From the NCBI GenBank assembly GCA_036557285.1, contig DATBHW010000004.1, positions 1-53,651 of the forward strand: DNA of 53,651 bases, written 5' to 3'. Below, one piece after another: positions 16,764-53,549 of the stretch. The translations under genes and the position numbers were made by a program. The DNA comes from Ktedonobacterales bacterium (GTDB lineage Bacteria; Chloroflexota; Ktedonobacteria; Ktedonobacterales; DATBGS01). The notes beneath the pieces were generated by a model. The model had not been told where the DNA came from. It did no database searches and was given only the letters and a program-made list of their open reading frames with translations. Every line of letters starts with the position of its first letter. Within the stretch, counting starts at the first letter, position 1.

Positions 16764-19004
16764 ATGCCCAGGGAGACCCGCAAACCCAGGAAAACGCCCG
16801 GCCCCAAACCGCATCAGCAGCCTGCTGCCCCCAGAACGCTTGACGCTTCAGCAAAGCAAGCAGTGCAAGCAGTGCTGGACCAACTCCCTACACTCTCGCA
16901 GCAATTGCGCCAGAGCAGTGATCGCGCCGCCTCCTATCAGGCGCTCTCTCTCATTGAACAACAGCCCGCCAGCGTCGCGCTCGCCGTTGCCGATGCCCTC
17001 GCCTCCAGACACATCGTTGAGGCAGCCGATGTCGCCCTGGCCCTGGCAGAACTCAGCCAGAGCCAGGCGCTGCGTAAAGAGGCGCGGCGCGCCCTGGTAC
17101 GCCTGCGCTCGGCAGGCATCGCCCCCGGCTTCTCGGTCCCGGCCATCGAAACTACCGCCACGCAACGGCAGCGTCCCTTTTACCTGGGCTACGTCACGCA
17201 GACACGCGAGCAGGGGGAGGCGCAGCTTGCGCTCGCCTGGTATGAAAATCAGGCCGCAGGCGATGTGCGCGGGGTGGTCTTTCTACTCGAATTCTGGCGC
17301 GATGGCGTCAAAGACTTCTATATGACGGATGTCACGACTACCAGACGCTTTCAGCAAGACTTCGCTAAAAACCACGCTGTTGTGGCCTGTTCGTTGGCGC
17401 AGGCGCGCCAGCTTGTTCAGGAAGCTCTGGAGATCAACACCTGGCGCAAAACCCCGCTCCCTGACGCCTACAAGCGTCACTATCCTACTATCCGTGACCT
17501 CCTGCTCAACAGCGCAATTGCTGAAGAAGAGGAGCACGCGGTCCTTCAGGAAGGGGATCGTCCCTGGATCGCGCAGCATCTGGAGCCTGAAGAGTTGATC
17601 GCCAATGCGCTCGGCGCGTGGTCATTTGGCGACTATGGCCTCTTCTATGACCTGCTGGCCGACGAACACCCGGCGCGGCGGGCGCAAACGCGCGATGAAT
17701 TCATCCAGCAGCGCCGCCAGTGGGCCGACGAAGCAGACCCGGCGGCCTTGCGCGCGCTGCTCATCCGCGAGCAGTCAGAGGCAGCACAGGCGGGTGGTCT
17801 CTGGACGCCCACCAGCATCCACGCGGGCGGGCGCAAAGATGTTGAGGCATTCTGGTCCCTGCTCCTCAAGGATAGCCCGCTGGGCGGCCAGATGGAGGAA
17901 TTGCCGATGGCAACCATCATCAACCGCGAGACGGGCCGACACTGGTACTGGACCAGCTATACGCTCGTTCAACAAAGCGGGGTCTGGCGCATCAGCCGCC
18001 AGCGCGACCAGGGGCTGCTGGCGCAAGGTCTACCCATCCCCGATCTTCAGCAGCGCGTCAAGGAACTGACCGAAGAGGCTAACCGTATCGCGCAAACGCA
18101 ACCAGCAACGGAAGCAGAGGCCGAGGAAGCCACCCGCACCCTCTTTGGCGCAGTTGTCACCTCGCTGCATACGAACGATGCCCTGATCGCGCGGCTGCCC
18201 CTGGATCGCGCCCCCTACGATCAGGCCGCGCTGGACGCACGCGCCATCGGCCAGTATGAGCGCACCGCCGCCTACTATCAGAAGATGCTTGATCGCTTTG
18301 GTGATCGGGCGCGCCTGCTGACACAACTAGGCATCATGCAATACCTGGCGGGCGCGCGCGACCAGCAAGAGGGCAACCAGACCGGCGCTCAACGCTGGTG
18401 GGACAGCGCCAGCGCATCATTAGAGGAGGCGCGCTCGCTCTCGCCAACCGCCGATACCTATCAGGCGTTGGCCGAACTGCGCCTGGCTGCGAATCGGCTG
18501 GAAGAGGCCGAACAACTGATACGCCAGGCGCTTGAGCTTGACTCCACCCGCGCCGAGCGGTGGGGCGAACTCGGCAGCATCCAGATGAACCGCAGCGAAC
18601 CACGCGCCGCGCTCGAAAGCTTTCAGCAAGCGGCACAGCGCAACCCGGACTTGCCCGGCATCCAGTTTCATATCGGCAGGGCTTATCGCGCTCTCGGAGA
18701 GCCTGAAAACGCCCGACTGGCTTATGAAGAGGCGATTCGCCGCAACCCTAGCGACACCGAGGCACATAATAACCTGGCGGCGCTGTTGGAAGAGCAAGAG
18801 CCTGCGCAAGCGATAGCGTTGCTGGAACGCGCCAGCGCGCTGGCGCCCACTGTTGCGCTCTATCATGCCAATCTGGCAGCACTTCTGCTGCAAACCGGAG
18901 CGATCAAGCGCGGCAAAGCCGAACTGGAGCTTGCCGAACGGCTCGAACCATCCAACCCGGTTGTGCGCCAGGTGCGCGCGTTTGCCAAAAGCCTGAAAGT
19001 TTAG
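16764..19004 (+). CDS. Large tetratricopeptide-repeat protein
   Basis: A 746-residue protein. The basic N-terminus (MPRETRKPRKTPGPKPHQQ) is followed by an alpha-helical region of HEAT-like character to about residue 140. A mixed domain to about residue 420 follows, with no family recognised. The last ~220 residues are TPRs, for example DTYQALAELRLAANRLEEAE, then RAERWGELGSIQMNRSEPRA and GIQFHIGRAYRALGEPENA. It is probably a protein-interaction scaffold; no catalytic motif is seen and there is no signal peptide. AAGGAG precedes the ATG at 16764. Its stop codon overlaps the convergent glycosyltransferase stop by three bases. Confidence 0.72.
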   Translation: MPRETRKPRKTPGPKPHQQPAAPRTLDASAKQAVQAVLDQLPTLSQQLRQSSDRAASYQALSLIEQQPASVALAVADALASRHIVEAADVALALAELSQSQALRKEARRALVRLRSAGIAPGFSVPAIETTATQRQRPFYLGYVTQTREQGEAQLALAWYENQAAGDVRGVVFLLEFWRDGVKDFYMTDVTTTRRFQQDFAKNHAVVACSLAQARQLVQEALEINTWRKTPLPDAYKRHYPTIRDLLLNSAIAEEEEHAVLQEGDRPWIAQHLEPEELIANALGAWSFGDYGLFYDLLADEHPARRAQTRDEFIQQRRQWADEADPAALRALLIREQSEAAQAGGLWTPTSIHAGGRKDVEAFWSLLLKDSPLGGQMEELPMATIINRETGRHWYWTSYTLVQQSGVWRISRQRDQGLLAQGLPIPDLQQRVKELTEEANRIAQTQPATEAEAEEATRTLFGAVVTSLHTNDALIARLPLDRAPYDQAALDARAIGQYERTAAYYQKMLDRFGDRARLLTQLGIMQYLAGARDQQEGNQTGAQRWWDSASASLEEARSLSPTADTYQALAELRLAANRLEEAEQLIRQALELDSTRAERWGELGSIQMNRSEPRAALESFQQAAQRNPDLPGIQFHIGRAYRALGEPENARLAYEEAIRRNPSDTEAHNNLAALLEEQEPAQAIALLERASALAPTVALYHANLAALLLQTGAIKRGKAELELAERLEPSNPVVRQVRAFAKSLKV

Positions 19005-39673: not shown

Positions 39674-39687
39674 CAGGTGTGAATCGG

Positions 39688-39729
39688 AGCCGGCGGTGGG
39701 ACTTGAACCCACGACCTACGGTTTACGAA
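39688..39729 (-). repeat. Partial tRNA-Thr(CGT), attachment-site core at one end of an integrative element
   Basis: On the minus strand the sequence reads anticodon loop TTCGTAA, anticodon-stem 3' strand ACCGT, variable loop AGGTC and a perfect T-arm (GTGGG-TTCAAGT-CCCAC). It ends with the 3' acceptor strand CGCCGGC and discriminator T; CCA is not encoded. Upstream bases do not pair with ACCGT and no D-arm exists, so identity to a tRNA stops at the anticodon loop. This is what remains when an element integrates into the 3' half of a tRNA gene. The rebuilt intact tRNA-Thr should lie beyond the right edge. Confidence 0.75.
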
Positions 39730-40811: not shown

Positions 40812-40911
40812 CTTCATCTGCTCTTGTCTCGCTCTACCCTCTTCCTGTCTTCCCGCCAACCCTCCAGAGAAGGGTCGCTCCAAACGCCCGGCCTTTAGAG
40901 AGGAGTCGTCT

Positions 40912-43900
40912 ATGGAATCGCATTCGCTTCCACCTGCGTTGATTGCTCACCTGCAGTGGGTGATTTGGCGCTTGGAGCCACGCCCCGGCAAGGCTAAGCC
41001 AGCCAAAGTGCCCTACACCCCCGCCACCGGGCAACGCGCCAGCACCACTACCCCGGCCACCTGGGGCAGCTACGCCCAGGCTCAGGCCGCTTACCGGTCG
41101 GGTAGCTATGATGGTCTGGGCTATGTCTTCCACCAGGCTGATCCCTATTGCGGGGTAGACCTGGACGGCTGCCGGAATCGAGAGACGGGCGAGATCACCC
41201 CCTGGGCGCAGGTTCTCATCACGCGTCTCAACAGCTACACGGAGATTACACCCTCTGGCAGAGGCTTTCATATCCTGGTCCGGGCGCGCCTCCCTGACCA
41301 TCGGGGCCGAAAACGCGGTCCGGTTGAGATCTACGACCATCAGCGCTTCTTTACGGTGACGGGCCAGCACCTGGCAGGCACCCCGACCACTATTGAGATC
41401 CGCCAGGCAGAGGTGACAACGCTCTACGTCCAACTTGCCCCTGAAGAAGGAGAGAGCACTGGTTGGGGGGTACGCTGGACCTCGCCACCAGCAGACCCTC
41501 CAACGATCACACTCGACGATGAAGCGGTGCTGGCGAAGGCTATGTCCGCCAGGAATGGCGATACCTTCCAGCAGATCTGGAGGGGCGATCCGTCCGGGTG
41601 TCAGAGCCAGAGCGAGGCCGATTACCGGCTCTGCCTGCTCCTAGCCTACTGGACGAATGGCGACGCTGTCCAGATGGACCGGCTCTTCCGCCGCTCTGGC
41701 CTGATGCGCGCCAAGTGGGACCAGCAACTCTCAGGGCGTGGACATACCTATGGGGAAGTGACCATCTACAACGCGCTGCGGCCAGGATGCAGCGGCCCCC
41801 ATGAGCCTCTGCGTTCCCGACGACAATTCCACAGCGTCGCACATACCGAGCCGAAGCAGCGCCCTGCTGAAACGCCGACGGATCGCCAGGCCCTCCTTAC
41901 TCAGGTAGGCGTGCAGCTTCAGGCCCGCGCTCGCGCGCATCTGGAAACAGGCGCTACAGACCTGCTCGTGCTGCTCGCACCTCCAGGGGTAGGCAAGAGC
42001 CATCAGGTGGCCGAACTGGGGCTGCCCGGCCACATGGATCTGGCCTGGGTCGCCGAGCGGCACAGCATGATCGAGAGCGTCCAGGCGCTCAAAAGGTACC
42101 AGGAGGTGGAAGCGTGCCTGGCAAGTAATTGCCCCGACTGGATGATCCATCGTCTGGTAGGCGAGCGTGGCTTCAACACGCGCGCCATCCATCGCCAGCA
42201 TGCCTTGCCCTGCGCCTACGTTGAGCAGTTCACCCAGCCCGGCTCGAAGGTCTACCAACTGGCCCATATACGGACTCGCTATCCAGCACAACATCAAGGG
42301 CTGGTGGTGGATGAGATGGACCTCTCGAAATGGCTGCCTGAGCGCGAGCTGAGCATCGCTCCCCTGCACGCTGCCACCGTCGCCAGTGCGCCAGGCAGTG
42401 AAGCGGAGCAGCTCCTCCTGGCGGTGCAGGCGACCCTCACCGATGCTGAGCGCGCTCAGACGCCCCTGCACGGCCAGGCGCTCTTTGCTGCGCTCAATCA
42501 GCGCTGCCAGGGCCAGTTGGCGGCCTGGGTCAGCCGACTGCACAACGCGCCAGGGACGCTCATGGACCCGCGCCCCTGGGTGGACCTGGATACCAGCGCC
42601 CCGGATGCCGCCGAGCAGGCCGAGCGGCTGCCGCCGGTCGTGCTGCCGCATCTGGTGACGGCGCTCTTCCGCGAACTGCCCCAATGGGAGCAGGAACAGC
42701 CCTGGAACAGTCTGCTGCGCGTGGGACCAGGGCGGCATGGCTGGAACCTGTTCCTCACCGAGCCGCTGGCCTTCACGCCCGATGAGGCCGGGCATCTGCC
42801 GCCCCGGCTGGTGCTGGATGCCACCGCTGATCCGGAGTTGCTCCAGCTTCTGCATGGGACGGTGACGGTCGAACGCACTGAGGTGCAGGCTCCTCCAGGC
42901 ATGCGTCATGTGGCCGTCAGGACAGGCAAGCGCTATGGCAAGCGGAGCCTCTGTATCCTGCGCAAAGATGGCTCCCAACCTGATCTGCTCCGCGCTCTCG
43001 CCGAGTGTCGTTATCTGCTCCGCCGGGAAGACCCGGAAGGGATGCTGGCCGCCTCCGGCCAAATCGGGCTGATCTCCTTCAAGGGTTGTGTGGATGCGTT
43101 GGGCGAGGCGCTGGGCATCTCCAAGGAACGGCGACTCTGGTTCTGGGGCGCGCGGGGGAGCAATGCGCTGGAGGATTGCCGACTCTTGCTGGTCGTGGGC
43201 ACGCCCACGCTGCGCCCCAGCGAGACCGCGCGATTGGCGCGAGCCCTGTGGCGACACGATCCCGTGCCCATTGACGAGATGGCTACCCGCGATGCGGAGA
43301 CAGGCGCCTGGCGCTATGCTGATGCGCGCCTCCAGCGGCTGGCAGAGTATTTGAGCCGGGCGGAACTGACCCAATGCGCTCATCGCAACCGGCCTCTGCG
43401 CTACACCGGGAAGGAAGCGCGGACGGTTATCACGCTGTGCCAGGGCACGATTGACTTCCTGCCCGTGAGCGAGACAATCACCACGCTACCCTTCCTCACA
43501 GCAGGCGGCGAGGATCGCGCCGCAGTGCGCCGCGCTGCCGAGCAGGAACGCCTGGCCCGCACCTATGCAGACCTCTGCCAGGCAGGGGCCAGCGTCACAG
43601 TGGAGGCGCTGCGCCAGGCCGCTCATGTGCGCAAAGCGACCGCCAGCGCCTGGCTGAGGATCCACCGTCAGACCGAGCCGCGGGAGACCCCCACCAGTGC
43701 TCTCTCTGCTGGTTCCCAGCTCCCTACAGATGCTTTTCATAGCAACACGGGAACTATGCTCGCTGCCCTGCCCTCCAGGAGGGCGCCGCACGATGAGTTG
43801 GAGGCGCAGGCTTTGGTGGCCGACCTCGCGGCGGATTGGCGAGTGGCCTCTCATCCCTGGTTGATCTGCGGCGCCTGTGGCGGGCATCTGTGGCGCCGCC

Positions 43901-44073
43901 TGCCCTGGGGAGAGGAGGTCTGTTGCAGTTGTCACCCGGCGCCCCTCTGGTCGGATCGTCTGGTGGCGCGCATTCGAGCGTGCGCCAGTGGCACATCTGC
44001 CCCGGCAGCATTCGTGGTGAGCACTGCATCACAGCGCGGTAGCGGCTCGCGGGCCGTAAGGAGTGGTCCATGA
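40912..44073 (+). CDS. PrimPol-SF2-like helicase fusion replication protein
   Basis: A 1053-residue protein that probably initiates replication of the excised element. Residues ~15-180 form an archaeo-eukaryotic-type primase-polymerase: metal motif GVDLDG near residue 81, then TPSGRGFHI near 113, and EIYDHQRFFTVTGQ near 143. A P-loop LAPPGVGKSHQ is near residue 356 and an acidic Walker B VVDEMDL near 464. DATADPELL, WFWGARGSNA and QCAHRNRP, at about 636, 745 and 825, look like SF2 motifs III, V and VI. A C-terminal HTH (EALRQAAHVRKATASAWLRI) near 905 and a Zn ribbon (CGACG, then CCSCH) near 985 end the protein. GAGAGGAG marks the ATG at 40912. It overlaps the next gene by ATGA. Confidence 0.8.
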   Translation: MESHSLPPALIAHLQWVIWRLEPRPGKAKPAKVPYTPATGQRASTTTPATWGSYAQAQAAYRSGSYDGLGYVFHQADPYCGVDLDGCRNRETGEITPWAQVLITRLNSYTEITPSGRGFHILVRARLPDHRGRKRGPVEIYDHQRFFTVTGQHLAGTPTTIEIRQAEVTTLYVQLAPEEGESTGWGVRWTSPPADPPTITLDDEAVLAKAMSARNGDTFQQIWRGDPSGCQSQSEADYRLCLLLAYWTNGDAVQMDRLFRRSGLMRAKWDQQLSGRGHTYGEVTIYNALRPGCSGPHEPLRSRRQFHSVAHTEPKQRPAETPTDRQALLTQVGVQLQARARAHLETGATDLLVLLAPPGVGKSHQVAELGLPGHMDLAWVAERHSMIESVQALKRYQEVEACLASNCPDWMIHRLVGERGFNTRAIHRQHALPCAYVEQFTQPGSKVYQLAHIRTRYPAQHQGLVVDEMDLSKWLPERELSIAPLHAATVASAPGSEAEQLLLAVQATLTDAERAQTPLHGQALFAALNQRCQGQLAAWVSRLHNAPGTLMDPRPWVDLDTSAPDAAEQAERLPPVVLPHLVTALFRELPQWEQEQPWNSLLRVGPGRHGWNLFLTEPLAFTPDEAGHLPPRLVLDATADPELLQLLHGTVTVERTEVQAPPGMRHVAVRTGKRYGKRSLCILRKDGSQPDLLRALAECRYLLRREDPEGMLAASGQIGLISFKGCVDALGEALGISKERRLWFWGARGSNALEDCRLLLVVGTPTLRPSETARLARALWRHDPVPIDEMATRDAETGAWRYADARLQRLAEYLSRAELTQCAHRNRPLRYTGKEARTVITLCQGTIDFLPVSETITTLPFLTAGGEDRAAVRRAAEQERLARTYADLCQAGASVTVEALRQAAHVRKATASAWLRIHRQTEPRETPTSALSAGSQLPTDAFHSNTGTMLAALPSRRAPHDELEAQALVADLAADWRVASHPWLICGACGGHLWRRLPWGEEVCCSCHPAPLWSDRLVARIRACASGTSAPAAFVVSTASQRGSGSRAVRSGP

Positions 44074-45584
44074 CCGAATTTCTCAAACGGGCGGCCACCA
44101 TCGCAGGTGGGATCATCGGCCTGGTGGTCGCCATCTTCCTGATCGCGTTTCTCCTCCACTTCTCTGAGTTGCTGGCTGCGCTGCTGCTAGTCTTGCTGTG
44201 TATAGGCACGCTAGCTGGCTGCGTCAGACTCGCGGCATGGGCGTGGTGGGCCTGGCATGGTCCCCGTGTCTACTACGAGCGTGAGGAAAAGCCTGCCCGT
44301 GTTGTCGCCTCACGCGATGGCGCCTGGGTTGCCCTGGAGAAGCCCGTTTTGCCTCCAGGCTTGCAGACGCTGACCTACTCCTATGAACCGCGCGGGCTGC
44401 CTGCCCCTGCATCATCAGTATCCGTCCCGCCGGAGGCCATGCCGGTCACGGTTCGTCCCGTACCCTCCACCCGCACGTTGATCGAGCAGGGCGCGCTTGG
44501 TCGCGGGCAAGACATCCTGCTGGGCTTTGATGCCGAAGGCAACGCCATATACCGGGCCTGGAAGCAGCTCAAGGCCATCCTCATCCTCGGCTTGCAAGGC
44601 GGCGGGAAAACCACAACAGCCTGCTGGATGCTGGCGCAGGTGGTGCTTAGCGGCGGGCGGCTGGCGGTGATCGATAAGCATGCCCGCTCAGAGGAAGACA
44701 GTCTGTACGCCAAGCTGCGCCCGTTGGAAGCGTGCCTGGTCTGTCCCGTAGGGGATGCCCCCAATACGGCGCTCCAGGTGCTTGGGGTGGCGTGCGCCAT
44801 ATTCGAGGCACGGCTAGCAGGGGAACCCTGTTCCTTCCCCCTGCTGCTGGTCGTGGATGAGTTCTCGGCGATCCTGCGGCAAGGCGAGTCCGGTGGCCCC
44901 TGGGAGACGGTCGCGCGTGAGCTGGTGGCCCTCGTCGAAGATCTGAACTTTGAGGGGCGCAAACACCAGTGCTATGCCATTTGCATTGGACAGGCGACTA
45001 ACGCTTCACGCAATGGGGGTACCGAGGTGCGCGATACCTTCAACACGCGCATCGTCCACGCTATGCGCGAGAAGCAGGCCCAGATGCTGGGGCTGACTGA
45101 ACAGCAGCAGCAGATTGCCCGGCTGGAGCGCGGGCAGGTCTACGTGGATAGCGAGGGCGCCGGGGAGCCGTTCTTTGTCCAGATCCCCTCTCTCTCCGAG
45201 GCGGACCTGCGCCTGATCGCGGCATACCTACGGCTGCCATCGCCGCAGGCGAACCCGACCATGCCCACCCTGCCTCCGCTGCCCTACAAGCCGGGACGGA
45301 CCCCATTGCCAGTGACAGGTGACGCCTCTGCTCTCTCTTCCTCTCTCTCTCCTGTGGCGCCGCTCAAGCGCGTCCCGAAGGCGCTCACCCCGGAAGAGAG
45401 GGAGAGAGAGAGGATTTTAGCGGCTCACCAGGAAAACCCGGACCTCTCGGCGTCTGCGCTCGCCAGTCTGCTGCATATCAGCAACAACAAAGTCGCGCTC
45501 ATTAAGCGCATCATCACTGAGGCTCAGCAGGTAACAAACCATGCGTCTGCTGAGGCGTCACCCAGTGAAAAAGGAGCCATCTGA
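44070..45584 (+). CDS. FtsK/TraB-like DNA translocase ATPase with C-terminal HTH
   Basis: A 504-residue membrane-bound ATPase. Two hydrophobic segments at residues ~10-55 anchor it. P-loop LGLQGGGKTTT is near residue 175, and Walker B FPLLLVVDEFSAIL near 255. The region HQCYAICIGQATNASRNGG fits the sensor segment of HerA/FtsK ATPases. After a proline-rich linker, residues ~445-490 form a helix-turn-helix (ASALASLLHISNNKVALIKR). This is where chromosomal FtsK has its gamma DNA-recognition domain. In actinobacterial integrative elements such an ATPase (TraB) moves double-stranded DNA by itself. It is translationally coupled to the PrimPol gene. Confidence 0.75.
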   Translation: MTEFLKRAATIAGGIIGLVVAIFLIAFLLHFSELLAALLLVLLCIGTLAGCVRLAAWAWWAWHGPRVYYEREEKPARVVASRDGAWVALEKPVLPPGLQTLTYSYEPRGLPAPASSVSVPPEAMPVTVRPVPSTRTLIEQGALGRGQDILLGFDAEGNAIYRAWKQLKAILILGLQGGGKTTTACWMLAQVVLSGGRLAVIDKHARSEEDSLYAKLRPLEACLVCPVGDAPNTALQVLGVACAIFEARLAGEPCSFPLLLVVDEFSAILRQGESGGPWETVARELVALVEDLNFEGRKHQCYAICIGQATNASRNGGTEVRDTFNTRIVHAMREKQAQMLGLTEQQQQIARLERGQVYVDSEGAGEPFFVQIPSLSEADLRLIAAYLRLPSPQANPTMPTLPPLPYKPGRTPLPVTGDASALSSSLSPVAPLKRVPKALTPEERERERILAAHQENPDLSASALASLLHISNNKVALIKRIITEAQQVTNHASAEASPSEKGAI

Positions 45585-45875: not shown

Positions 45876-47027
45876 ATGGTATCCGTCCCACCTCAGGCGC
45901 CGATGAGCGGGTGGCGCCGTTTCTGGCGAGCTATCTGCGAACTGCACTTTATCACCGCCTTTTTTACCTGGCTGTTTCTCTTGCTCAGTCGGCTGGCCGA
46001 GCCGCTGATGACGCTCTCCGCCATCTACATCATTCTGTGCGCGGGCATCCCGCAGTGGAAGCTGGAGAGCCTCTACAACACCGGAGTCGCGGTGATGATT
46101 GGCGCCCCAGAGGTGATTCTTCCCGGCTCCTTTGTGCTGGCAGGCCAGTACAGCGCGCGTGGTGAATCACGTGCGAAGCTCTTGTACTGGGTTAGCTGGT
46201 TCTTTGTGATGCTGACCTTTGTGACACTGGGCGACCTGTTTCTCTTCCACTGGCCCCAGGATGCGGTGAGTGTGCTCATGTGGGGCCGCTGCGCTGTCAG
46301 CATCAGCTACAGTATTTTGCTGCGCGTGCTGACCCATGACCAAGGTGACCAGGGACAGCAACTCTTCCCACAGCCAGCACCTGCCCCCGAGATCGACTAT
46401 CAGGAGCTGGCACGGCATCTGGTGCCGTTGATGCCAGCACCCCACGTTGATTATCAGGCGATTGCGCAGCAGTTGGAGGCCACGTTCAAGGCGACCATGG
46501 TACGGGAAATTCGAGAAATCCAGGGTACGCTCGCAGCGACGCCAGTTCTCCACAGTGGCTTCGCAGCCAACCTTGGGAGCCAGACACGGGCGCCAATCAG
46601 TGGCTCCCATGTTCCGTTGGGGAGCCGCTTACAGGAGCCACGCTCTCTTCTGGGAACCGCACATGGGAGCCAGGCACCAGCGCCACTACCTGGCTCCGGT
46701 CCCACGGGTGGGAGCCACACGCTGGAGCCGTTGCCTGGGTCTGGAGCCACCTCTGGGCGCCAGGTGGTGGCACTGGCGCCAGCCAGGGATCCACGCCAGG
46801 GGCAGCTTGAGCCAGAAGAAAGTCTCGCTGGGCGCGAGGCGAGAGCCGCCAGGCTGGAGGCTGCCTATCAGGAGTTGGTGGCGACAGGCATCCGCGTCTC
46901 TGGTCGCGCGCTGGCTGACCGGGCCAGGTGCAAACGCGCGGCGGCGACGGAGTGGCTCCGCGCTAAAACAGGAGCCACTCCGGGGAATCAGCAAGAGGAG
47001 GTGGAGCCAGAACAGGAAGTGATCTAA
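45876..47027 (+). CDS. Membrane protein with repeat-rich linker and C-terminal HTH
   Basis: A 383-residue protein. About four hydrophobic segments lie in residues 20-155 (such as FITAFFTWLFLLLSRLAEPL and WFFVMLTFVTLGDLFLF). A helical region follows, then a Gly/Ser/Pro-rich linker (residues ~230-305) whose codons contain many copies of the DNA motif GGGAGCCA. The C-terminal helix-turn-helix reads VSGRALADRARCKRAAATEW. The membrane-plus-HTH plan resembles DUF2637/Spd-type transfer proteins of actinobacterial plasmids. The match is in layout only. AAAGGAGG precedes the ATG. It may tether repeat-bound DNA to the membrane during transfer, which is inference. Confidence 0.65.
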   Translation: MVSVPPQAPMSGWRRFWRAICELHFITAFFTWLFLLLSRLAEPLMTLSAIYIILCAGIPQWKLESLYNTGVAVMIGAPEVILPGSFVLAGQYSARGESRAKLLYWVSWFFVMLTFVTLGDLFLFHWPQDAVSVLMWGRCAVSISYSILLRVLTHDQGDQGQQLFPQPAPAPEIDYQELARHLVPLMPAPHVDYQAIAQQLEATFKATMVREIREIQGTLAATPVLHSGFAANLGSQTRAPISGSHVPLGSRLQEPRSLLGTAHGSQAPAPLPGSGPTGGSHTLEPLPGSGATSGRQVVALAPARDPRQGQLEPEESLAGREARAARLEAAYQELVATGIRVSGRALADRARCKRAAATEWLRAKTGATPGNQQEEVEPEQEVI

Positions 47028-47144
47028 CGGGAGCCACCAGGGGGAGCCATTTGGGGAGCCATGCTTGGGAGCAATTTCCTGGCATGAAGGAGGGCTGCGG
47101 TTCATTTTCACTGTTTGGTCCCCAGGGGCAGCTCTTCGGAGCCA
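46575..47144 (+). repeat. Dispersed array of the 8-bp motif GGGAGCCA
   Basis: Exact copies start at 46575, 46665, 46710, 47029, 47042 and 47054, with one inverted copy at 46601-46608. Single-mismatch copies lie near 46620, 46633, 46691 (inverted), 46742, 46953 (inverted), 46970, 47002, 47067 and 47137. The array spans the 3' end of the membrane-protein gene and the following gap. Nearly all copies point the same way and spacing is irregular. It looks like a protein-binding locus. Confidence 0.75.
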
Positions 47145-47361
47145 GAGTCGCATCGAACAGGTCAGAACATGAGATGGCCTCATCTGACCTCCAGATCGCC
47201 GCTGAGTGTCCCATACTCATTGACGTGCTTCGTCAGGACAGCATGCTCTTCCAACTGCCTCAGTCGTGGACGCCTCACGCTTGTTCCCAGTCCATTTCAT
47301 AGGATTCTGGCCTCACATCGTCTTTGTTGCGAAAAGCTATTAAGTTGTGAAGGAGAAAATC
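47028..47361. other. Non-coding gap, candidate transfer or replication origin
   Basis: A 334-base gene-free stretch inside an otherwise tightly packed operon. The first ~120 bases carry the densest GGGAGCCA copies. The rest shows no clear gene, terminator or tRNA. Its base composition drifts towards AT before the VirD4-like gene. Confidence 0.45.
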
Positions 47362-48927
47362 ATGTTCTTTGGAGATTTGCTCTCCGATCTTCAGGCATGG
47401 AATGATCGTTTGATGGTGTTTGTCCTGGCGCTCGTAGGGATTGGCTTCATCACGATGCTGGCGCGGATCCTGATCCAGCGACGGCGTGGGGGACCAGGCT
47501 CCAGAAAGCTGCGTGATCGCTTCAAAACCCGCCAGCGGCGACGCTCCAGGAAGGCGCTTCAGGAACTCGCGCGTGGGGCCAGTGTGGTGTTAGGGAAGAA
47601 CCTTCAGGCGTGGCCCAGGCAGGACATCATCCTGCCTGAACGGTCACGCTGCTTGAATGTGATCAACCTGGGTCCGGTGGGAGCGGGCAAGACCTCCTAT
47701 TTCCTGAGCACCTTCATTGCCGCAGATATAGCCCGGCCTGATGTCGCCCTGGTGCTGTTTGACGGCCAGCGCGAGATGACCGAGCAGGTGTTGGCCCTGG
47801 CCCAACGGCATCACCGCGAGGTGGTGCTGTACCCGGATGCCGGGTTTAATCCCCTGGTTGGACCCGGAGGCCCGCACGCCCATGCCGCTTTGTTTGCTGA
47901 CCTGTTCGCCCAGGTGAGCGAAACAGGAACGCAAGGCGCCTCAGGCTACTATCTGCAAAAGGCGCAGTCGTTCCTTCGGAAAACCATTCCACTCTACGAA
48001 CGCGCCTATCGGCAGCCAATGCTGCTGCAAGAACTGCTTGAACTGTGCCTGAGCGACGAGAGACGCGAGGGCCTCCTGGCAGCAGCGGCTGGATCCCCTG
48101 AGGCGCGCGAGTACACCCTCTTCTGCAACAACTGGTCGAAATCAGACTTTGATCAAAACCTCTCCGGCTTGGTCAACTTCCTGGATCGGCTCTGTGTAGG
48201 CCGCAATGCGTTTCTCTATAACCAGCGCCACGCCCCCACGCTGGCCGAGTGCCTGGAGCAAAAAAAGGTGGTGATGATCCGTGCAGGTGGGCCAGTCGGC
48301 ACCCAGGAACACACGCTTGGCCTGCTCTACATGATCAGCTTGCAAGCGTATGCGGCCCAGCGCGCGATCACGCACTCCCCCCATCTGGTGAGTGTCTTCC
48401 TGGATGAGGCGCATCTCTACTTTACGGCGAACTTCCCAACCTTCATTGCGACGGCGCGCAAGCGTCGGGTGGCGCTGCAGCTGGGATTCCAGGCGTTTGA
48501 GCAGTTGGAGCCGTTTCGCCAGACCATTACGACCAATGCGCGCACCTGGATCGTGCATAATGGCCTGCTCCATCTTGATGCGCAGGTCGTGGCAGACAAC
48601 ATCGGCAAACGCAACTTTCAGACGCGCAGTTGGTCGTATGCACGCTTCCGAGAGCCGCATGCCACCGTCTCCGACACCTGGGATTATCTGGTGCAGCCCC
48701 ATGAGATCCGGGGGCTGGATGCTAACCACGTGCTGATCCTGACCGTCGAGGGGCGTGAGACGGCTGCGCATGTGCTGGCGCGCAAGCCCAGGCTGCTGGA
48801 CCTGCCCACAACGCCCTATCACGAGCCAGCCGTCCCCATGTACGCTCCTCCCACCATCTGGGCAGAGCCAGAGAACCGGCAGCCTTCAACGACGTCTGCC
48901 ACAAGGCAAGCCGCATCCGATTGGTAG
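47362..48927 (+). CDS. VirD4/TraG-like coupling ATPase
   Basis: A 521-residue ATPase of the type IV coupling-protein/TraD group. One hydrophobic segment near residues 15-37 (FVLALVGIGFITMLARILI) anchors it. P-loop LGPVGAGKTS is near residue 103 and Walker B VFLDEAHLYF near 345. The downstream TARKRRVALQLGFQAFEQLE, then NARTWIVHNGLLHLDAQ, match the sensor region of that family. It would bring relaxase-bound DNA to a transfer channel; no channel genes are in the window. ATG at 47362 is chosen because AAGGAG is seven bases upstream; a GTG five codons earlier is less likely. Seven bases separate it from the next gene. Confidence 0.78.
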   Translation: MFFGDLLSDLQAWNDRLMVFVLALVGIGFITMLARILIQRRRGGPGSRKLRDRFKTRQRRRSRKALQELARGASVVLGKNLQAWPRQDIILPERSRCLNVINLGPVGAGKTSYFLSTFIAADIARPDVALVLFDGQREMTEQVLALAQRHHREVVLYPDAGFNPLVGPGGPHAHAALFADLFAQVSETGTQGASGYYLQKAQSFLRKTIPLYERAYRQPMLLQELLELCLSDERREGLLAAAAGSPEAREYTLFCNNWSKSDFDQNLSGLVNFLDRLCVGRNAFLYNQRHAPTLAECLEQKKVVMIRAGGPVGTQEHTLGLLYMISLQAYAAQRAITHSPHLVSVFLDEAHLYFTANFPTFIATARKRRVALQLGFQAFEQLEPFRQTITTNARTWIVHNGLLHLDAQVVADNIGKRNFQTRSWSYARFREPHATVSDTWDYLVQPHEIRGLDANHVLILTVEGRETAAHVLARKPRLLDLPTTPYHEPAVPMYAPPTIWAEPENRQPSTTSATRQAASDW

Positions 48928-48934
48928 GTATCAG

Positions 48935-49564
48935 ATGGGGAAGTACGTGCAGCCAACGGCGCGAGATGTCGCGCTGTTTCGGTACATCGGGCAGCGAGGG
49001 CTGTCCAACACGCAGGCGATTCATCAGCAGTTTTGGGCAGGACGGAAAATACAAACCTGCCAGGACCGACTCGCCCAACTCGTGAAAGGAGGCTATCTGC
49101 ATACCGCCATGACCGACGCCCGTGGGAAGGCTGAACAGATATACTGGCTCGGTCGGAAGGCGGAGCACCTCTTTGCTGCGGCAGAACGCGCCAGCTTTGT
49201 CAAAGGGAGGCCAGCCCAGGCCGAGATTGGGCATGTGCTGACGATGGGAGATGTGCTGGAAAAGTTGAAGCAGCGGTACAGGGTGACAGACGTGACCACG
49301 GAGCGCGCATTGAAGGGGGAACATAAACGAGGCTTGAGCACGGTGCTGGCTGATGGGCGGATGCGCCTGGATGGAGTGGAGTATCTGCTGGAGATTGATT
49401 CCCCGCACTACACCGGGCAGCGGTTACGAAAAAAGGTGGCAGGCTTTGGGAAAGCGGGGAAGCCCACCTTGTGGGTCGTTGCAAGTCAGGCCCGGCTCCG
49501 CACGGTGAGTCGTGCGACGGCAGGGCAGGCGAATATTCAGGTCGTACAGGTGAACAAACTATGA
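48935..49564 (+). CDS. Replic_Relax-like winged-helix protein, copy 1
   Basis: A 209-residue protein of the replication-relaxation type, whose members include putative relaxases of plasmids and integrative elements. The N-terminal winged helix reads PTARDVALFRYIGQRGLSNTQAI, then CQDRLAQLVKGGYLHT, and the wing ends in IYWLGRKAEHLF. The C-terminal half, with RLDGVEYLLEIDSPHYTGQRL and KPTLWVVASQARL, resembles a nuclease-like alpha/beta fold in which D and E residues could bind metal. ATG at 48935 follows the ATPase stop by seven bases. It overlaps the next gene by ATGA. Confidence 0.68.
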   Translation: MGKYVQPTARDVALFRYIGQRGLSNTQAIHQQFWAGRKIQTCQDRLAQLVKGGYLHTAMTDARGKAEQIYWLGRKAEHLFAAAERASFVKGRPAQAEIGHVLTMGDVLEKLKQRYRVTDVTTERALKGEHKRGLSTVLADGRMRLDGVEYLLEIDSPHYTGQRLRKKVAGFGKAGKPTLWVVASQARLRTVSRATAGQANIQVVQVNKL

Positions 49565-52217: not shown

Positions 52218-53549
52218 CTAATTCAAGCGATCAAGCATTCTCATGGCTTCTTGAATTGCTGCTTGCACCAACGGTTTATGCTGCTGGACATCTACCCCAG
52301 CTAGCTTTACTAACTCCCGGTGCGAAAGGGGTTTCCGTGCTATATTCCCTTGCTGAGCTACCCAATTGACGCGACGAACCGCGAACTGCTCAGTTGATTC
52401 TAGAACTTCATCGAGAGCTTGCATTGTCAATGGCAAGAAGGCAGCATTTCTGAACCAGTTTGAAGAGGAGGGTAGGGCCAACTGCAGTTTTAGAAGTGTT
52501 ATTTTTTGCGGCGCGCCAGGGGCATCAAGAAGTTCTTGTGCTCTTTGTCGTATGACTTCAGCAGTCTCTCGATCGCGTCCTTCCCACTCTTGTGGGAGAA
52601 TTTTTTGGCCCCCTCTTGATCCATATGGTTTGACTTGCCTATGCCAGCGATTACCTGGTGGTTGGCGGGCTTTGTGAGGAGGTAAGTGGGCTTGAAGCCA
52701 GGTAAGATCATATCTCCTCAACCAATCATATCCGCCCATTGATTGCCTGACCACGACACCGATTCCCTGACCAGGGTAGTTTGCTATCGTTTTCAGCCAC
52801 TGTTCGCGATGAAAGGATAGCTCAACTTCAGATGGGGTCTTTCTCTCACGTTCTAGCATCTGGAGACGCGAGGGCAAACCCAACTTTTTCACCTGTCGAA
52901 AAATGGTGTTGACACTTACTCCTAGCTGTTGTGCAATCTGTGCATTGCTCAGTGTGGAATCTAGCCGTAGGTCGGATAACGTGCTTTCCCATAGTTTTCC
53001 ATAAGTAAGGATGCTGTTGTATTGATAGGGGTCGTCCGGGTCAGCCTCAGAGAGGCTACGCGAATACGCGAACCCACAGTCGCAAGCGAAGATGCCGCTA
53101 AACTTTGAGCGAGCTTTTTGGCGGATGCGGCAGATGTGGATATGCAATTGCTTGTAATGCAGACAGATCGGGTTTAAGCATGGCCACGGTCCTTGCCCAA
53201 ATACAGCTGAGCGAGGAGTACTCTGTGGTTCTTGAAAAGATTGCTGCACCGAACTCTTGAGAAACTGCAGGGTAAGAATATGATGGAGAGGAATCTGCCT
53301 TTTTTTTGTTCCAACAAGTCTCATGAGCCAGCTAGAGTGCATACTCGCCGTCAGATCGACCTCACAGTGCAGCAAGGTGAGTAATGCACTGGGGAAATAA
53401 TTTTGGAAGGCCCCTACAAGCTCGGAGATTCTTACCTTGCCTACCAATGTCAGATAACGCTGCTGTTCTAACAAAGTCTGATAGTGTTTGCGCAGGTAAT
53501 GTGCATCTACCGGTAGTTTGTTGACGAGGGGGCAGGCCAGGTGGTACAA
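52218..53549 (-). CDS. tnsD: TnsD/TniQ-type target-selection protein, N-terminus lost
   Basis: TnsD binds a specific chromosomal site and recruits the Tn7-type transposase. What remains (443 residues from TTG 53549) matches the part after the TniQ domain. It opens with LVNKLPVDAHYLRKHYQTLL and GKVRISELVGAFQNYFP. The zinc-binding CLNPICLHY near residue 124 is followed by IFACDCGFAYSR near 153. HTH segments LSNAQIAQQLGVSVNTIFRQ near 200 and the C-terminal VRRVNWVAQQGN follow. The usual ~190-residue TniQ domain with its first zinc site is missing. In frame, a TAA at 53571-53573 coincides with the start of an IS701-like transposase, so the gene is truncated. GC is lower than in the transfer genes. 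Confidence 0.82.
   Translation of the reverse strand: MYHLACPLVNKLPVDAHYLRKHYQTLLEQQRYLTLVGKVRISELVGAFQNYFPSALLTLLHCEVDLTASMHSSWLMRLVGTKKRQIPLHHILTLQFLKSSVQQSFQEPQSTPRSAVFGQGPWPCLNPICLHYKQLHIHICRIRQKARSKFSGIFACDCGFAYSRSLSEADPDDPYQYNSILTYGKLWESTLSDLRLDSTLSNAQIAQQLGVSVNTIFRQVKKLGLPSRLQMLERERKTPSEVELSFHREQWLKTIANYPGQGIGVVVRQSMGGYDWLRRYDLTWLQAHLPPHKARQPPGNRWHRQVKPYGSRGGQKILPQEWEGRDRETAEVIRQRAQELLDAPGAPQKITLLKLQLALPSSSNWFRNAAFLPLTMQALDEVLESTEQFAVRRVNWVAQQGNIARKPLSHRELVKLAGVDVQQHKPLVQAAIQEAMRMLDRLN

Follow-up and report, generated by a model that had tools for sequence, protein, structure and literature searches.

An intragenic repeat array in an AICE-type element from Ktedonobacterales and its co-variation with the C-terminal helix-turn-helix of the encoded membrane protein

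Results

A repeat array found at one locus of the genome

Does a dense cluster of short repeats at the 3′ end of a membrane protein gene act as DNA or arise from the encoded protein, and if it acts as DNA, which protein would read it? An earlier note on this locus took the cluster for a candidate clt/oriT of a conjugative element, read by an FtsK-like protein. We examined it in the window, that is, the whole stretch of 53,651 nucleotides, which forms contig C4 in the 5.1-Mb draft genome of a soil-type bacterium. Seven exact copies of GGGAGCCA lie where the note had placed them, at 46575, 46601, 46665, 46710, 47029, 47042 and 47054, and as stated there they mostly share one direction, only the copy at 46601 being on the minus strand. 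The clustering is indeed far above chance: 286 copies in 5.115 Mb correspond to about 0.03 per 490 bp, and no other such cluster exists in the genome. A group of three copies on contig C12 was considered as a second site and rejected, as it is not an array. Besides the seven exact copies we counted 12 with one mismatch, where about nine had been reported.

The real core of the repeat is GGAGCCA, which occurs 14 times within 620 bp (46541-47160) against 0.14 expected from the remainder of the window (Poisson p ~1e-20), with 11 copies in the sense and three in the antisense orientation. No control window of the contig came close to this density, and nowhere else in the whole genome are three GGAGCCA found at short gaps. 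Five units follow at an exact spacing of 45 bp (46575...46755). The copies that the note had described beyond the stop codon at 47027 were confirmed as five, three exact and two with one mismatch, spaced by 12-13 bp. Its claim that coding alone is insufficient also held, as copies occur in all three reading frames and on both strands, and shuffling synonymous codons with the protein kept gave a mean of 2.0 and a maximum of 6 copies (300 shuffles) compared with 10 real copies within the gene. Synonymous shuffles failed to reproduce the strong arrays described below as well, and protein sequence is thus excluded as their cause.

Gene content of the element

Read from left to right starting at the tRNA piece, the element encodes a primase-type replication protein, an FtsK-like ATPase, the membrane protein whose gene holds the array, a TraG/VirD4-like ATPase and a Replic_Relax protein (Table 1). 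An intact tRNA-Thr(CGT) adjoining a tyrosine integrase is present on contig C10, and we infer from the common att site that contigs C4 and C10 are linked. A tRNA att site, a tyrosine integrase, primase-type replication and an FtsK-like translocase are features shared with actinomycete integrative and conjugative elements (AICEs), which have been reported as confined to Actinomycetales within the Actinobacteria searched (PMC3218068). The gene layout of the window is that of an AICE-type element found outside the Actinobacteria, and it differs from known AICEs in its Chloroflexota (Ktedonobacterales) host and in the additional TraG/VirD4-like and Replic_Relax genes. No relaxase family was matched among the genes scanned, and we found no evidence for the suggested oriT at the array. 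A TnsD-like gene lies at 52218-53549, close to the contig end.

Table 1. Features of the element in the window.
Feature	Position	Strand	Description
tRNA-Thr(CGT) 3′ fragment	39680..39729	-	att site of element
Primase/helicase-type replication protein	40906..44073	+	NrS1-1_pol-like HBD
FtsK-like ATPase	44070..45584	+	two N-terminal TM-like helices, C-terminal HTH-like tail
383-aa membrane protein	45876..47027	+	C-terminal HTH at ~317-365, preceded by a long disordered linker and a predicted helical membrane domain (~12-160)
GGAGCCA array	46575..47144	+, mostly sense	14 copies; 7 exact GGGAGCCA; spans 3′ part of membrane/HTH gene and beyond stop
C-terminal HTH segment (RLEAAYQELVATGIRVSGRALADRARCKRAAATEWLRAK + flanks)	46824..46970	+	proposed array reader
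TraG/VirD4-like ATPase	47362..48927	+	Pfam PF12696
Replic_Relax protein	48935..49564	+	Pfam PF13814

The 383-aa membrane protein matched no Pfam family, PF10935 included, and gave only weak HTH matches in Foldseek; its C-terminal HTH was modelled by AlphaFold2 with a pLDDT of about 94. The closest solved folds to the model of the upstream ATPase are the FtsK motor (6t8b, E 4e-12) and TcpA, the coupling protein of pCW3, which supports its earlier identification as FtsK-like, while the HTH-like C-terminal tail also reported for it was modelled at low confidence only. Within the FtsK-like gene a GA-rich run alone stands out and is not convincing as an array. The C-terminal part of the primase (43531-43689) encodes an HTH that shares its class with the one in the membrane protein and might read the same array.

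In its layout of membrane domain, linker and C-terminal HTH, in its position beside an FtsK-like translocase and in its intragenic array, the membrane protein resembles the SpdB2/DUF2637 proteins of Streptomyces. Comparison of its membrane domain with DUF2637 by hhalign gave E 0.05-0.16 at a probability of about 1%, using shallow alignments. As sequence homology to DUF2637 was sought and not found, the protein was kept out of that family. DUF2637 was not matched anywhere in the window's own genome, and the control genomes had none either.

Private arrays in Ktedonobacterales relatives

Same-order relatives include a Ktedonobacteraceae MAG and Ktedonosporobacter rubrisoli, and a profile search of contigs (alignment A3) returned four loci only. 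No GGAGCCA clusters were found in the Ktedonobacterales homologues, and GGGAGCCA was rejected as an exact conserved motif, GGAGCCA being unclustered in relatives and replaced by other motifs. Homologues that keep the protein and lack the 8-mer, which the earlier note had named as a point against its reading, thus literally exist; yet many of them, including the closest, have a clustered word of their own in the corresponding gene segment. These words are AGGGCCA, AGAGCCA, AGATCCA, AGTACC, AGGACA, GGTGAACA, GGCTACG and CTGCA(A), together with TGGACA (in two elements), TAGACA, GGAACA and CGAACA.

Arrays of private motifs in the matching gene segment were tabulated for 14 Ktedonobacterales genes and nine Streptomyces genes. 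The 280 in-gene copies in these genes comprise 222 sense and 58 antisense copies, and almost none of them falls in the first third of the gene, which codes for the membrane domain. About nine further HTH-bearing Ktedonobacterales homologues (e.g. L019, L066, L070 and L074) had no detectable array. Several of the Ktedonobacterales arrays are weak, those of G001, G045 and G044 being marginal against shuffles in which the best 7-mer was chosen.

The motif follows the C-terminal HTH

Comparison of gene pairs points to the motif following the C-terminal HTH of the membrane protein, rather than its membrane domain or the FtsK-like protein. Recombination has shuffled membrane domains against HTHs, so the effects of the two can be separated. 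Two genes of one genome (C156 and C218) have membrane domains of 36% identity and HTHs of 78%, and both contain TGGACA, their common 3′ half being a homologous DNA cassette. The reverse was seen for C156 and C221, with 69% in the membrane domain, 19% in the HTH and different motifs (TGGACA vs CTGCA), for C221 and C222 (69% and 17%, different motifs) and for G001 and G045 (52% and 16%, different motifs). The window and G001 have the same motif class, with a membrane domain identity of 24% and an HTH identity of 56%.

An [A/G]GNNCC array was present in five of the six genes that share the window's class of HTH (GGAGCC, AGGGCC, AGAGCC, AGATCC and AGTACC) and in none of ten genes with other HTHs. 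In a Mantel test of 13 genes, for which motif representatives were picked by eye and not blind, the motif correlated with the HTH (r 0.42, p 0.001) and not with the membrane domain (r -0.05).

In G041, G035 and G040, a separate array occupies the 3′ end of the FtsK-like gene itself (GGAAAC, GCGTAA and ATTCAC, respectively). That of G041 (L102:7451-7861) consists of 18 copies of GGAAAC, mostly in the 3′ end of the gene, and is a candidate clt; the next gene contains a TAGACA array, which is distinct from it. In the G035 element (L018:11114-11531 and 946-1076) each of two genes has a separate array: the primase gene contains eight copies of ACTATCCGCA in its 3′ part, and the FtsK-like gene contains six of GCGTAAC.

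Arrays in spdB2-type genes of Streptomyces plasmids

Streptomyces plasmids served as the positive control, and the array scan returned the clt already known for pJV1 (CCGCACA, after traB) and for pWTY27 (TGACACC), in agreement with the published sites (PMC3583192). In nine plasmids, genes of the SpdB2/DUF2637 type contained an array stronger than the clt, with GTGAGC, GTGAAC or GCGAAC as the motif. Such arrays are present in pJV1, pSN22 and pWTY27, and in pJV1 and pWTY27 their motif differs from the proven clt at traB. The 16 copies of GTGAGC in the spdB2-type gene of pJV1 (L111:666-1781), which belongs to a cluster named spdB123 (PMC3218068), are apparently a new array beside the known clt. 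Synonymous shuffles did not reproduce the Streptomyces arrays, although the shuffle of pSN22 was not clean, as the stretch merges two annotated frames; the array of H15 is weak, with 6/100 in its shuffle test.

Before ten further genes were viewed, a prediction was fixed that recognition helices with GWVA, GWVS and WVSD would go with GTGAGC, GTGAAC and GCGAAC, respectively. The predicted motif was found in all seven unseen genes with a recognisable helix, and one gene without an HTH had no array. For H35 and H36, which have divergent HTHs, no array was detectable, and that part of the prediction failed. Part of the agreement in motif among the Streptomyces genes reflects descent, as these genes are homologues of one another. 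The SpdB of pIJ101 has no array, and the rule is therefore not universal in Streptomyces. No TraB 3′-end arrays were found in the californicus, NBC_01383, alfalfae and melanogenes plasmids.

Discussion

Candidate readers of the array

We consider that the array probably provides binding sites for the HTH of the membrane protein encoded by the same gene, and that this protein would tether the element at the membrane for FtsK/TraB-type transfer or for maintenance. The earlier reading, which sees the array as the element's clt, recognised by the FtsK-like ATPase through its C-terminal HTH in the way that TraB recognises 8-bp repeats in Streptomyces, draws on the gene just upstream, which encodes an ATPase of FtsK fold and HTH-like tail, on known clt arrays that overlap or follow the transfer gene (PMC3583192) and on the mainly one-directional repeats. 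It nevertheless appears unlikely, as C103 and G038 have similar FtsK tails by alignment and different arrays (AGGGCCA vs GGTGAACA), the window and C103 have different tails and similar arrays, three relatives have a separate array in the FtsK-like gene itself, and in two Streptomyces plasmids the proven clt at traB and the spdB2-type array are different motifs. What stands is a cis array of the clt kind in an element of the conjugation type; what changes is its likely reader, for which co-variation favours the membrane protein's HTH over the FtsK-like protein. A replication origin or partition site, composed of iterons or a centromere and read either by the primase or by the membrane protein as a segregation anchor, would suit the same-class HTH in the primase tail and has a parallel in the 3′ array of the G035 primase gene. 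It is quite improbable, however, given that array genes adjoin quite different replication proteins and that the motif tracks the HTH of the membrane protein where the primase differs.

Sites inside the gene itself would also fit an HTH protein that limits its own expression by binding there as a roadblock, but the 3′ half and the region after the stop contain 10-20 sites, far above the need of a repressor and remote from the promoter, and membrane anchoring would be left unexplained; autoregulation of this kind seems very unlikely. The possibility that the array is a by-product of coding, as a decayed 45-bp minisatellite or a low-complexity linker, gains some credit from the repetitive linkers and from the five regularly spaced units in the window. 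Against it are the occurrence of copies in all frames, on both strands and after the stop with dissimilar spacers, the outcome of the synonymous shuffles, and the fact that the motif follows the HTH, which together make it highly improbable.

Proposed binding by the membrane protein at a second cis-acting site

If the membrane protein is the reader, its C-terminal HTH would bind many sites in its own gene, and the membrane-anchored protein would tether the excised or replicating integrative element at the membrane, next to the FtsK-like translocase. The array would then serve in cis as a second locus, for dsDNA transfer of the FtsK/TraB type, for intramycelial spreading or for maintenance. It is clt-like, but probably a second, membrane-protein-specific site. 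Like the TraB/clt systems of Streptomyces plasmids (pJV1 CCGCACA, pWTY27 TGACACC, pSVH1 8-bp repeats), it is an element-specific array of short repeats that adjoins or overlaps the gene for an HTH-tailed transfer protein. Unlike clt, it lies in the membrane protein gene and tracks the HTH of that protein, and in Streptomyces the two kinds of array coexist as different motifs.

Linker, array and HTH occupy one stretch of DNA and therefore recombine as a single cassette, in which site and reader stay matched. Placement of the array inside the gene thus keeps the two together during recombination, as exemplified by the cassette of C156 and C218. A general rule for FtsK/TraB-type conjugative elements of two phyla may be drawn from this, for which we regard the case as evenly balanced: HTH-tailed transfer proteins, chiefly of the SpdB2 type, would hold arrays of their own sites within the gene as a swappable cassette, an element would have at least two orthogonal cis addresses, and recognition-helix residues (e.g. 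WVA, WVS) would predict the motif. No earlier description of an intragenic array was found in the open literature, a search whose scope lay outside the main TraB/Spd papers (EMBO J 2011; mBio 2015), and the rule is apparently new, on a provisional basis.

Spd proteins are important yet unexplained partners of TraB. In pSVH1, SpdB2 is an integral membrane protein with TraB as an interaction partner and with dsDNA-binding activity, reportedly of a non-specific kind, and in SLP2 spdB2 has an effect on stability (PMC4170104). The SpdB2 literature that we surveyed describes non-specific binding only, unlike the motif-specific binding proposed here. A private in-gene array would give Spd proteins a predicted address in classic plasmids with mapped clt (pJV1, pSN22 and pWTY27), and would offer a simple natural code linking the recognition helix to the DNA word. 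The window also extends the anatomy of FtsK/TraB-type conjugation to mycelial Chloroflexota.

Other repeats and neighbouring genes in relatives

Regular word repeats that are remote from the gene of interest were seen at L067:692-1349 and L078:9877-10470 and are perhaps CRISPR arrays. At L020:17455-17910, eight copies of GAGAGTCA are interspersed with ATATATA repeats adjoining a minus-strand gene (17890-18963), in an arrangement that resembles plasmid iterons. In three elements of one genome, IS605 OrfB/TnpB-like genes lie directly 3′ of the array gene (L062:1951-3246, L063:1337-2608 and L064:6523-7809).
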